A stretch of DNA of 64,000 bases from Gammaproteobacteria bacterium (GTDB lineage Bacteria > Pseudomonadota > Gammaproteobacteria > Nitrosococcales > Methylophagaceae): NCBI GenBank assembly GCA_014859375.1, contig JACUUH010000001.1, positions 62,001-126,000 of the forward strand. Direction: 5' to 3'. The translations under genes and the position numbers were made by a program. The notes under the pieces were generated by a model. It ran no database searches, was not told the DNA's origin, and saw nothing but the letters and a program-made list of their open reading frames with translations. Positions within the stretch are counted from its first letter, which is position 1, and the number at the start of each line of letters is the position of its first letter. Positions 11,774-36,670 of this stretch are shown one piece after another.

Positions 11774-12986
11774 TAAGTATGCGCAAACGCCCTCAGTAGC
11801 TCCCACAGAGACGCTTGAACTCTTAAGTGATGAAGTCACCGGAGGTCTCACTAAGGATTACCTGGAGATTAATGCTATCTCCAAGGATTTAGATAAAATG
11901 TTAACGTCTTCTTACAACTTAGGTATGTTAGAAGACAAGTTTGATAGTATAGCTAACGAGTCTATGTTGTCTGACAGAACATTGTTTTATGCAACGCAGT
12001 CCGTTAACTGTGAATTAAAAAGTTTAGGTTTGGAAGCGATTCCTGGTGTGGACTCTATAGTAGGTGCTAAGAATAAAACTAAAGACATCCTGGCTTCTAT
12101 TTTTAAAGCTATTAAAGATGCTATCCTAAAGATACTTAACAGTATTAAAGAATTCTTCGGTAAACTTTTTGGTTTGTTAAGACCTTATAAAGAAAGAGTT
12201 GATAAATTACAGAAAGAAGTCCAAGAGAAGTCTAAAGGTAAATATAAGTTACAAAATGACTCACCTATCAAATTACCTTCTACTGTTATATCTAAAGATA
12301 CAAAGTCAATTTACGATATCAGTAGAGTAATGCAAGAGTTGGTGTCTTCAGGTCAGGGTATTAGAACTACCATGCTTTCTATCTCATCTAAGAGAATAAA
12401 GAACCTCACTTCTTTTTTAATAAATCTTAAACAGGATAAGTTAAAACCTAAGGACTTAATTGCTGGCTTTAAAACTACACTAGATTCCCAGTATAAGAAT
12501 TTAGAACCGTTGGTTAGTAAATACAAAGATAGTTTAGGGTATAAAACTTTTGTTGAGAATACATTCAAATATAAGTTAGGAGATGATCTTAACTATGAAG
12601 AAAAATGGATTTCTTTTGGTGAATCAGAGTCTAACCCTAAGAGCGACCATGATGTAGAGGTTGATCTAACAAGACTTAAACTTTCAGTTTTAACTGACAT
12701 GCTACAAAGTTCAAGTAAGATACTGGAAGGTTTTGAATCAAGTAAATCTTTAGTTGAGAAGTATTACTCGGATAGAGAGAAATCTATTAAAGATGCTGAG
12801 CGCGTTATTGTAGTTAACGATAACACTGTGGATACACAAAGAGTCAATACCTCCATTAGAGCTATCCTTAGGATACTCCAAAGAGAGTCCTTGAAGCCGG
12901 TGGTTGATTTTGATAAATACTCTTTAGACTATGTCAGATTCACTATATCTATGACTGAGAAAATATTAAAGAGGTATCAAGCGTGA
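11760..12986 (+). CDS. Inner-head-type protein paralog 3
   Basis: 408 residues beginning MSMFDKYAQT. The RBS GAGGAGGG lies inside the end of the upstream gene. A G-L-E site (~90-92) precedes the shared helix (ILASIFKAIKDAILKIL ... FFGKLF, ~107-140). The C-terminal segment with ILRILQRESLKPV aligns with LRKLQQDNLRPV of paralog 2, which is good evidence for common descent. It overlaps the next start by four bases. Confidence 0.65.
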   Translation: MSMFDKYAQTPSVAPTETLELLSDEVTGGLTKDYLEINAISKDLDKMLTSSYNLGMLEDKFDSIANESMLSDRTLFYATQSVNCELKSLGLEAIPGVDSIVGAKNKTKDILASIFKAIKDAILKILNSIKEFFGKLFGLLRPYKERVDKLQKEVQEKSKGKYKLQNDSPIKLPSTVISKDTKSIYDISRVMQELVSSGQGIRTTMLSISSKRIKNLTSFLINLKQDKLKPKDLIAGFKTTLDSQYKNLEPLVSKYKDSLGYKTFVENTFKYKLGDDLNYEEKWISFGESESNPKSDHDVEVDLTRLKLSVLTDMLQSSSKILEGFESSKSLVEKYYSDREKSIKDAERVIVVNDNTVDTQRVNTSIRAILRILQRESLKPVVDFDKYSLDYVRFTISMTEKILKRYQA

Positions 12987-31315: not shown

Positions 31316-31328
31316 ATTTGTTCCCCTA

Positions 31329-31450
31329 GCCCGAAATAAAATTCGGGCACCTTATTACACAATGAGTTTATAGCTTATTGTAAACCTAATCTGATGATGA
31401 GTGAGCGAAAGGTATTGCGGACGGCGGTTCGAGTCCGCCCTACTCCACCA
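31329..31450 (+). ncRNA. tmRNA acceptor piece (T arm, acceptor 3' strand, encoded CCA)
   Basis: T arm GGCGG-TTCGAGT-CCGCC at 31423-31439, preceded by GGAC as in E. coli tmRNA. Acceptor strand CTACTCC at 31440-31446, discriminator A 31447 and genomically encoded CCA 31448-31450. Two hairpins upstream, GCCCGAA/TTCGGGC (31329-31348) and ACAATGAG/CTTATTGT (31359-31381), probably belong to this piece. The exact 5' end is not determinable. Confidence 0.88.
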
Positions 31451-31622
31451 AATAGTAACTGCAACAATTAATAGATGGTTTATCTCCTATTCATTAAGAA
31501 AGTTGACTTGATGAAAGTCGTGTTGATAAACTGAAGTCGTCATTAACTTGGCGGTTGAACTTATTTATTGTGTTGTAGCGGAAAACGTCTCCGCGCATAT
31601 ACAACTGCAGTTACTATCTGAT
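31451..31622 (+). ncRNA. tmRNA intervening transcribed segment (removed on maturation)
   Basis: 172 nt. Its ends are a perfect 12-nt inverted repeat, ATAGTAACTGCA at 31452-31463 and TGCAGTTACTAT at 31606-31617, which would extend the acceptor stem and hold the two pieces together for processing. Inside, GTTGTA-GCGGA / TCCGC-...-TACAAC forms a further hairpin (about 31572-31604). Confidence 0.8.
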
Positions 31623-31900
31623 GGGGTAGCATTGGTTTCGACGTGGTGCTAATTACCTCATTCTAGGATCGTGCTTGATTACTGGCACGTAAAAGAAGGT
31701 GTCAGGTTCCCCTAAAAAGAATTCTGAACGCTGGAAAACAGATTATCTGTTTATTAGTAATTTTAAAGTAACTGCAAACGATAATAATTTTGCACAAGCT
31801 AAGATCGCAGCCTAAGAAACTGTGATCGCTGGGGCTCATCGTCGGGATATGCCTTGCAACAGAACCCACCGCACCTCGATAGGGGTGCGTCACTAATTCC
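31623..31900 (+). ncRNA. tmRNA coding piece with tag ORF
   Basis: Begins GGGGTAG, then TTGGTTTCGACG (D-loop signature). PK1: CGTGC 31670-31674 with GCACG 31685-31689, and loop TTGAT 31675-31679 with GTCAG 31701-31705; a GTAAAAG linker follows as in E. coli. Tag ORF 31774-31815, preceded by AGTAACT. H5: GATCGCAG 31803-31810 with CTGTGATC 31820-31827. A further 8-bp hairpin lies at 31870-31889. The 3' end is approximate. Confidence 0.88.
31774..31815 (+). other. tmRNA proteolysis-tag reading frame (ANDNNFAQAKIAA)
   Basis: Resume codon GCA at 31774-31776, then 12 more sense codons and TAA 31813-31815. The tag begins AND like the E. coli tag and ends in a small hydrophobic Ala-Ala, the feature recognised by ClpXP-type proteases. 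The stop lies in the loop of H5. Confidence 0.88.
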
Positions 31901-31902
31901 TT

Positions 31903-31935
31903 AAGGGAGAGAGGTTAATTCCTCTCTCCTTTTAT
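31903..31935 (+). terminator. tmRNA terminator (TTAATT loop)
   Basis: GGAGAGAGG / CCTCTCTCC stem extended by AA/TT with loop TTAATT and then TTTTAT. It ends the pre-tmRNA transcript about 35 nt upstream of the next gene. Confidence 0.88.
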
Positions 31936-31970
31936 ATTATTTTTTTCCTTAGATATAGAGGTGAGATAAA

Positions 31971-34288: not shown

Positions 34289-36670
34289 ATGTATAACTTC
34301 GTAAGAACCCTCGTAGGGAATGTTTTCGTAGAAGAAACTAAAGGGTTAATTCACATTAAAGGTGTTAAAGCCTTATTGCTTTTAAGGGATATAAAGTCCA
34401 TTTGGAAGACTTCCACTATAGGGAATAATATATTTGTTAAGTCTACCGGTAACACTTTAACTTTCCATTCTTTTTTTGCTTTAGAAATTAGATATATCCT
34501 CGAGCAGATGCTTGAAAATCCAAAAGCATTTAGATTAAGTCCAAGGGTAATAAATAAAGTTTTAAAAGAATTAATGAAAAGTACCTGGTTAAAAAAGACC
34601 ACGGAGTTAGATCAAGTATTACCTTTAAATTACAAGAAATTAAGAGACTTTAATTTAAAACCCTTAGAGCATCAAAAAGAGTTCTTAGAAGTATTTAATA
34701 GAAGAACTCAACTTTATAATCTAAATGGTTTTATGCTAGCTGCAGCAGCTGGGTCTGGTAAAACGTTTACTAACATGGCTCTTTCTAGAGTTAATGATTC
34801 AGAGATCACCATAGTTGTATGCCCCAAGAACGCAGTTTATAAAGTATGGGAAAAATCATTAAAAGATGATTTTAAAAAGACTCCTAAATATTGGATAGCG
34901 GCGGATGGGAAAGATTTAGACTATAAATCGGAATATTATATTTTCCATTATGAGACTTTAGATAAGGCGCTGGAATTAGGTAAGAGAATAGGGGATAAAA
35001 ATAAGACCACTATAATTTTAGACGAGTCTCACAACTTCAATGAAATTAAGTCTATGAGAACTCAAAAGTTTATTGACCTTTGTAAAGTTACAGGCAGTAA
35101 GAATATCGTTTGGGCTTCAGGCACACCTTTGAAAGCCATGGGTGGTGAGATGATAGGTTTTTTAAAATCCATCGACCCATTATTCAATGATGATGTTGAA
35201 AAAGCTTTTAAAAGTATCTTTGGTACCAGTGTGCAAAGGGCTAATGATATCTTAGCGCATAGACTAGGCTATATTTCTTTTAAAGTTAAAAAGAACGAAT
35301 ATCGTACTGCAGAACCAACAGAGAACACTGTTAAAGTTGAAGTACCTAATGGTGATAAATACACTTTAGAAAGTGTAAGAGACCAAATGGCTAAATTCAT
35401 AGAAGAAAGAGTAGTCTACTATAAAGAGAGAGAAGATGAATATAAACAAAAGTTTTATTCGGCTTTAGAGTGGTATGAATTAAATATAGTTAAAGGTTCT
35501 TCAGATGTAAGTAATTTTAAAGAGTATATGTCTAAGTTAAAAATTGTTATTAAAAGTAATGACTTAAGACAAGTATCTGAAGAAATAGTTTTTTGCAATA
35601 ACTACGAGAAACAAAAAATTATACCATCGCTTATATCTGATCACAAAGCTAATTTCCTAGAATCTAAATCGGTGGTTAAATATCTTAGTCTGAAGATACA
35701 AGGCGAGGCTTTAGGTAGAGTACTAGGTAGAGCCAGAGTAGAGTGTTTTAAAGACATGGCAAAACATTCTAACTTAGTAGATCTAATAGAAGCTGCAGAG
35801 AAAAAGACTGTGATTTTCACTAGTTACGTTGAAGTGGTTGATGAACTAGAGGAGAGATTAAAGAATCTAGAGTATCTACCCGTTGTGGTGCATAGTAAAA
35901 CCAAAGAAAGTTTAACATCTGCTGTAACTAGGTTTGAGAAGAATGAAAACTTAAATCCCTTGTTAGCTACGTTTAAATCTTTATCCACTGCAGTGCCTCT
36001 AATAGTTGCCAATAAGGTAATCATGATTAATGCGCCTTATAGAGACTACGAGTACGAGCAGGCTATATCTAGAGTGGATAGATTAGGTCAAGATACACCA
36101 GTAGTTATAGAGAACCTCTACTTAGACACTGGTACAAAACCTAATATATCAACAAGGTCTAAAGACATTATGCAATGGTCTAAAGAACAAGTTAAAGAAT
36201 TGCTAGGGTTCGATTATGATGACAGTTTAGATATATCAGTTGAATCTTTAATGGAGGATGAACCTTCAATGGAAGCAGTCAGCTCATTTAAACCTAAGGA
36301 AGACTCTTCCAATCCTGGTTTTTACTTTATCCCAGGTTATAAGGGATACAGAGCTAGTGAAGATGGTAAAATACTAACTATCAAAACAGGTAACTCTACT
36401 TACGGTGGGATGGCAGGTGATTATCTAAAAGTGAAAGTTTATCCTGACAATGTTAAAGGTCCTATTATGCAGTATGCGCACATTTTAGTATGTACAGCAT
36501 TCTACGGTAAACCTAAGAAGGGTCAGGTGGTTCTTCATAAAGACAACGATAGAACTAATAACAATAAAGGTAATCTTAAGTGGGATACTCAGTCTGAAAA
36601 CATACAGCAGGTATGGGACGACGGATTGAGAGAGTCTAAAGAGAGTTATCCTGTAAGTATGAGGTGGTAA
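34289..36670 (+). CDS. SNF2/DEAD-type helicase fused to a C-terminal NUMOD4-HNH domain
   Basis: 793 residues. Helicase core: Walker A AAAGSGKTF (152-160), DESH box (245-248), SGTP motif III (~277-280) and QAISRVDRLGQ motif VI (591-601), an SF2 helicase of SNF2 style. Residues ~678-793 look like NUMOD4 (FYFIPGYKGYRASEDGKI) plus HNH (H731, H750 with KDNDRTNNNKGNLKW), as in phage HNH homing nucleases. The linker has S-V-E (650-652) and S-M-E (660-662), matching the head-protease-type site used by neighbours, so it may be packaged and cleaved. ATP-driven DNA translocation is expected; the nuclease may be active or vestigial. Confidence 0.85.
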   Translation: MYNFVRTLVGNVFVEETKGLIHIKGVKALLLLRDIKSIWKTSTIGNNIFVKSTGNTLTFHSFFALEIRYILEQMLENPKAFRLSPRVINKVLKELMKSTWLKKTTELDQVLPLNYKKLRDFNLKPLEHQKEFLEVFNRRTQLYNLNGFMLAAAAGSGKTFTNMALSRVNDSEITIVVCPKNAVYKVWEKSLKDDFKKTPKYWIAADGKDLDYKSEYYIFHYETLDKALELGKRIGDKNKTTIILDESHNFNEIKSMRTQKFIDLCKVTGSKNIVWASGTPLKAMGGEMIGFLKSIDPLFNDDVEKAFKSIFGTSVQRANDILAHRLGYISFKVKKNEYRTAEPTENTVKVEVPNGDKYTLESVRDQMAKFIEERVVYYKEREDEYKQKFYSALEWYELNIVKGSSDVSNFKEYMSKLKIVIKSNDLRQVSEEIVFCNNYEKQKIIPSLISDHKANFLESKSVVKYLSLKIQGEALGRVLGRARVECFKDMAKHSNLVDLIEAAEKKTVIFTSYVEVVDELEERLKNLEYLPVVVHSKTKESLTSAVTRFEKNENLNPLLATFKSLSTAVPLIVANKVIMINAPYRDYEYEQAISRVDRLGQDTPVVIENLYLDTGTKPNISTRSKDIMQWSKEQVKELLGFDYDDSLDISVESLMEDEPSMEAVSSFKPKEDSSNPGFYFIPGYKGYRASEDGKILTIKTGNSTYGGMAGDYLKVKVYPDNVKGPIMQYAHILVCTAFYGKPKKGQVVLHKDNDRTNNNKGNLKWDTQSENIQQVWDDGLRESKESYPVSMRW

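Follow-up and report, generated by a model that had tools for sequence, protein, structure and literature searches.

A circularly permuted tmRNA gene in an apparently circular, phiKZ-like jumbo phage genome binned with a Methylophagaceae bacterium

A phage contig binned with a Methylophagaceae genome (Gammaproteobacteria) carries a locus where the acceptor end of a tmRNA seems to be encoded ahead of its coding part, which raises two questions: whether this is a genuine permuted ssrA gene, and what such a gene may do in a phage whose presumed host has a tmRNA of its own. The window, i.e. the whole 64 kb stretch of DNA analysed here, corresponds to bases 62001-126000 of the 209,130-base contig, within a bin of 2.35 Mb and 106 contigs. 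A first-pass annotation of the locus as a circularly permuted, two-piece tmRNA gene is confirmed. ARAGORN calls a permuted tmRNA at window positions 31358-31906, with the tag ANDNNFAQAKIAA, and the Rfam model RF04321 (tmRNA_permuted) matches the locus with 83.4 bits (cut-off 47) over positions 1-213 of 213, which assigns it to this Rfam family. This is the single above-cut-off match in a scan of the window against all of Rfam; since its E-value in a scan of that breadth is 1.7e-14, and the ARAGORN call is independent, the match is not due to chance.

The comparison with covariance models, suggested in the same annotation, gave a divided answer: RF04321 is over its cut-off, while the alphaproteobacterial type RF01849 (32.1 bits against a cut-off of 50) and the betaproteobacterial type RF01850 (35.5 bits against 84) remain below theirs. 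The cyanobacterial RF01851 is absent from the E-value scan of the locus, a scan which omits overlapping, lower-scoring members of the same clan. The standard tmRNA model matches the halves only, each below cut-off.

RF04321 is not specific for the permuted form, as one standard tmRNA (L020) also exceeds its cut-off, with 61.4 bits. For this reason, the gene order was inspected directly, and both the order and the coordinates originally proposed were found to hold: the T arm, CTACTCC, A and a CCA ending at 31450 precede GGGGTAG, which starts at 31623. An acceptor stem with a G3.U70 pair links the two pieces, and a frame with a resume codon encodes ANDNNFAQAKIAA and ends at TAA. A second T arm, sought 3' of the tag, was not found there: the region contains a hairpin and a terminator only. 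The parts of the gene are listed in Table 1.

Table 1. Parts of the permuted tmRNA gene, in window coordinates.
Feature	Position	Strand	Evidence
Acceptor (tRNA-like 3') piece	31358-31450	+	Sequence, ARAGORN, RF04321; 5' end as drawn by ARAGORN
Acceptor-piece strand of the 12-bp inter-piece helix (partner 31834-31845)	31391-31402	+	Constrained two-strand fold, 0.74-0.96
H2, 3' strand (partner 31643-31650)	31411-31418	+	Fold, complementarity
T arm, GGCGG TTCGAGT CCGCC	31423-31439	+	Sequence, RF04321 alignment
Acceptor stem 3' strand CTACTCC, discriminator A, encoded CCA	31440-31450	+	Sequence, fold
Intervening segment, 172 nt, removal expected in maturation	31451-31622	+	Fold z-score, layout of other phage genes
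Coding (mRNA-like) piece, opened by GGGGTAG (acceptor 5' strand) and the D-loop-like GGTTTCGACG	31623-31906	+	Sequence, ARAGORN, RF04321
H2, 5' strand	31643-31650	+	Fold
Tag reading frame ANDNNFAQAKIAA, stop TAA	31774-31815	+	ARAGORN, sequence
Coding-piece strand of the 12-bp inter-piece helix	31834-31845	+	Fold
Intrinsic terminator at the end of the transcription unit: 12-pair stem followed by a T-rich run	31903-31940	+	

Three helices had been drawn between the two pieces, and they fared differently when folded. The acceptor stem is paired at 7 of 7 positions, with a probability of 0.93-0.95 in an unconstrained two-strand fold, and contains the G3.U70 that serves as the alanine identity pair. 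H2, drawn as 31643-31649 with 31412-31418, is indeed complementary, but four of its seven pairs are G-U, and it enters the minimum-energy fold only under constraints that fix the T arm and the acceptor stem and bar the D-loop-like stretch from pairing; its probability is then about 0.4, and it is one pair longer than first drawn (Table 1). A further 7-bp helix, proposed between 31657-31663 and 31399-31405, is complementary yet disfavoured (probability 0.06 or less), being out-competed by a 12-bp helix, and according to the folding predictions it is probably wrong. The 12-bp helix, most pairs of which reach about 0.96 in the constrained two-strand fold, is the stronger connection between the pieces.

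The intervening segment is strongly folded (-48.7 kcal/mol, z -4.32), none of 200 shuffles being equally stable. It is opened and closed by a perfect 12-bp helix (31452-31463 with 31606-31617), which adjoins both expected cut sites, and a CTGAT spacer separates this terminal helix from the GGGG of the coding piece. The same plan is found in most phage permuted genes with intervening segments longer than about 28 nt; a segment so long and so strongly folded is an unusual trait of the window gene. The window contains three copies of the 10-mer AGTAACTGCA (31454-31463, 31606-31615 on the minus strand, and 31767-31776), against 0.14 expected in shuffles, the copies being both arms of the terminal helix and the tag resume site. 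Control of the gene through pairing of the 3' arm of the segment, TGCAGTTACT, with the resume site was considered and set aside: the 10-nt match exists, and it may be chance, since the shuffle p is about 0.013 in one of some 37 genes tested and the match is absent from the others. Similarly, a protein encoded within the segment was sought, and the only frame present, of 19 codons, was not counted as a gene.

Longer frames were observed in the intervening segments of other permuted tmRNA genes. In two IMG/VR contigs (L083, minus strand, 12655-12867; L084, 6871-7081), a frame of about 70 codons lies within a 194-nt segment and crosses into the tmRNA coding piece at the latter's 5' end. Its two versions share 75% protein identity, and their changes, numbering 17, 12 and 27 by codon position, are commonest at third positions, which suggests a real protein; no match was found among PHROGs or in phage records. 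Two other, unrelated frames are located in the segments of L086 (3209-3442), where the frame matches phrog_4098 (E 1e-10, profile positions 506-559 of 559), and of L087 (2399-2587) and L090 (1335-1523). Intervening segments holding a tRNA or a repeat are on record, proteins being unmentioned in the available part of the source (PMC11915505).

The phage setting of the gene, also stated in the first-pass annotation, is borne out by the rest of the contig. PhiKZ-like genes are distributed along its whole length, and encode a nuclear shell protein (phrog_4795, E 1e-96), terminase, DNA polymerase, RNA polymerase beta (phrog_3015), the major head protein (phrog_3231), internal head proteins, a virion protein (phrog_3013) and a tail sheath. 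The nuclear shell, the multi-subunit phage RNA polymerase and the phiKZ-type head proteins place the phage among the phiKZ-like, nucleus-forming phages (Chimalliviridae). The contig ends overlap around a tRNA-Arg gene, suggesting a circular genome; the contig thus appears to be the 209 kb circular genome of a phiKZ-like jumbo phage. The placement of the contig in a bacterial bin might also be explained by an assembly chimera, the tmRNA gene being bacterial, but phage genes flank the tmRNA in both directions along the 209 kb contig and the bacterium of the bin has a standard tmRNA of its own elsewhere: this explanation is extremely improbable.

Within the end overlap of contig C4 (L013, 1-201; L018, 2972-3130), the two copies differ inside the tRNA-Arg(UCU) gene. 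At the tail it is a normal tRNA; at the head, some 40 additional bases lie around the anticodon stem and ARAGORN makes no call. The copies may be allelic, or they may reflect a duplication in which the tRNA was altered. A 793-aa frame at window positions 34289-36670 combines a DNA helicase domain (residues 6-640) with an HNH endonuclease domain (643-783).

On the phage, ARAGORN detects the tmRNA, a tRNA-Met and a tRNA-Arg only. As smpB is absent from the phage contig, the phage RNA would have to use the SmpB, alanyl-tRNA synthetase and RNases of the host. The bacterium of the bin has a standard one-piece tmRNA (213.6 bits, tag ANDNNYALAA) adjoining smpB, and the sole SmpB of the assembly is bacterial (193.3 bits), with 99% identity to that of one gammaproteobacterial bin and 81-88% to those of Methylophaga and Methylophagaceae bins. 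Among Methylophagaceae-like loci with an ARAGORN tmRNA, all 14 of 14 are one-piece, with tags starting ANDNN. A second permuted gene, proposed in a bin of the same genus (G026, 61.4 bits), turned out to be the standard tmRNA already noted (L020), whose tag reads ANDNNYALAA.

ANDNN is likewise the start of the phage tag, alone among the phage tags of the set, and this agreement weakly supports the host assignment. On the basis of binning and of the shared tag start, the host is most likely a member of the Methylophagaceae. Apart from the tag start, the phage gene and the standard tmRNA of the bin differ: the bin gene is one-piece, and body sequence, tag length and tag end (KIAA in the phage, ALAA in the host) are not the same. 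The exact phage tag was not found in viral contigs. Many phage permuted tags end, instead of ALAA, in a basic residue followed by I, L or V and by AA or VA (KIAA, RIAA, RLAA, RLVA, RVAA); such ends were seen in L039, L062, L067, L071, L085, L092 and L097, besides the window gene.

Phage-borne permuted ssrA had been presented as uncommon, and here the first-pass annotation overstated the case: 53 two-piece genes are reported among 133 unique phage tmRNA structures in a 2022 survey (PMC9004378), and in the present analysis a strict motif search detected permuted tmRNA in 56 viral contigs, with ARAGORN agreeing for most. Another source (PMC11915505) gives 79 phage sequences for the tmRNA database, and huge phages with tmRNA and SmpB are on record (PMC7162821).

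Within the phiKZ-like group the picture is another one. In 13 other phiKZ-like isolates and one related viral contig, neither a permuted tmRNA match nor a standard match over cut-off was found; two of these 14 have sub-cut-off standard matches (22.7 and 24.7 bits) to stretches of about 76 bases. Other phiKZ-like phages were looked for among the 22 larger contigs with permuted tmRNA, and the phrog_3231 head protein occurs in none of the 22. Searches of viral contigs for relatives of the phage virion protein returned one distant phage only, without tmRNA, and for the upstream neighbour protein no relative. A nucleotide comparison of the locus with 50,697 phage records matched a terminator-like stretch only. 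No report of a permuted tmRNA in a nucleus-forming phage was found in the open-access literature. The gene looks like the first permuted tmRNA in the phiKZ-like group among the phages tested, not the first among phages.

Its scores with the alpha and beta models, both under cut-off, mark the phage gene as divergent; it could have become specialised or be in decay. A passenger gene, or a decaying one, acquired from some bacterium and with no present function, would fit both this divergence and the lack of the gene in the 14 other phiKZ-like genomes or contigs, but every essential part tested is intact, i.e. acceptor stem, G3.U70, CCA, T arm, open tag with stop, and terminator. In addition, acceptor pairs 5 and 6, the letters of which were left free in the search pattern (it prescribed pairs 1-4 and the G in pair 7, which are uninformative), are paired in 50 of 50 distinct phage permuted tmRNAs, with letters varying on both sides. 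Pair 6 is A-U in the window gene alone and U-A in 42 of the 50, a compensated change which argues for selection. A functionless copy is very unlikely.

The locus proceeds from the acceptor piece through the 172-nt intervening segment to the coding piece and the terminator, with an intact tag frame, and judging from these sequence features it is very probably a working permuted ssrA of a nucleus-forming jumbo phage most likely infecting Methylophagaceae. The folded intervening segment would be excised by the tRNA-processing RNases of the host, with RNase P cutting at G31623 and 3' nucleases trimming to CCA31450. In nucleus-forming phages transcription takes place within a protein shell, so that the precursor would need export from the phage nucleus to reach these enzymes. 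The resulting two-piece RNA would be charged by the host alanyl-tRNA synthetase and brought by host SmpB to ribosomes that have stalled on broken mRNA; the tagged products would be handed to host proteases. The phage may benefit in that ribosomes are kept free and truncated proteins cleared while mRNA is degraded during infection; both roles, rescue and tagging, are plausible.

Two other readings give the RNA a more particular task. It might be a specialised tmRNA, outside the described alpha and beta lineages, which redirects host trans-translation and, exported from the phage nucleus, competes with the one-piece tmRNA while adding a different tag; the folded intervening segment could then control the timing of its activity. 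This is unlikely. Quite unlikely, too, is a decoy or competitor that blocks or redirects host trans-translation by binding the SmpB, alanyl-tRNA synthetase or ribosomes of the host. The host has its own tmRNA, so that an extra copy need not serve simple rescue, the length and C-terminal part of the phage tag (end KIAA against ALAA) are unlike those of the host, and the tag-less tmRNA of phage DS6A is reported to inhibit the endogenous tmRNA in E. coli (PMC11915505); against this, the tag frame is intact, with a host-like start and the AA end expected of a working degradation tag.

With a working rescue RNA as the preferred reading, phage-borne split tmRNA now extends to nucleus-forming jumbo phages, with a clean mismatch between the two-piece form in the phage and the one-piece form in the presumed host. 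Two questions thereby become testable: why the split form is retained so often in phages, and by what route an RNA made in the phage nucleus gets to cytoplasmic RNases and ribosomes. Permuted tmRNA being already known in phages, what stands out here is the uncommon phage vehicle and the mismatch of form with the presumed host.

Among known systems, the Methylophilales phage Melnitz and the Pelagibacter phage Mosig (PMC9004378) are similar in having a two-piece ssrA in a lytic phage, and Melnitz likewise has a tmRNA type differing from that of the lineage of its own host. They are, however, marine myophages of smaller size, a glutamine riboswitch being present in some, whereas the present phage is a 209 kb nucleus-forming one, with no match to an Rfam riboswitch in the window and with a one-piece gene in its presumed host.

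The same gene form, according to ARAGORN and RF04321, is found in six named phages: the Stenotrophomonas phages Menderavirus Bhz51, DLP_6 and BUCTxx99, Acinetobacter phage BUCT628, Xanthomonas phage Rb1 and Synechococcus phage BUCT-ZZ01. Gammaproteobacteria, the hosts of most of them, generally have one-piece tmRNA. The six score 100-137 bits with RF04321 and four pass the beta model, while the window gene, at 83.4 bits, passes neither the alpha nor the beta one. With the permuted tmRNAs of Alphaproteobacteria, Betaproteobacteria and Cyanobacteria (RF01849, RF01850 and RF01851; merged in RF04321), the phage gene shares gene order, acceptor domain and tag; from the first two it is set apart by scores below both model cut-offs.
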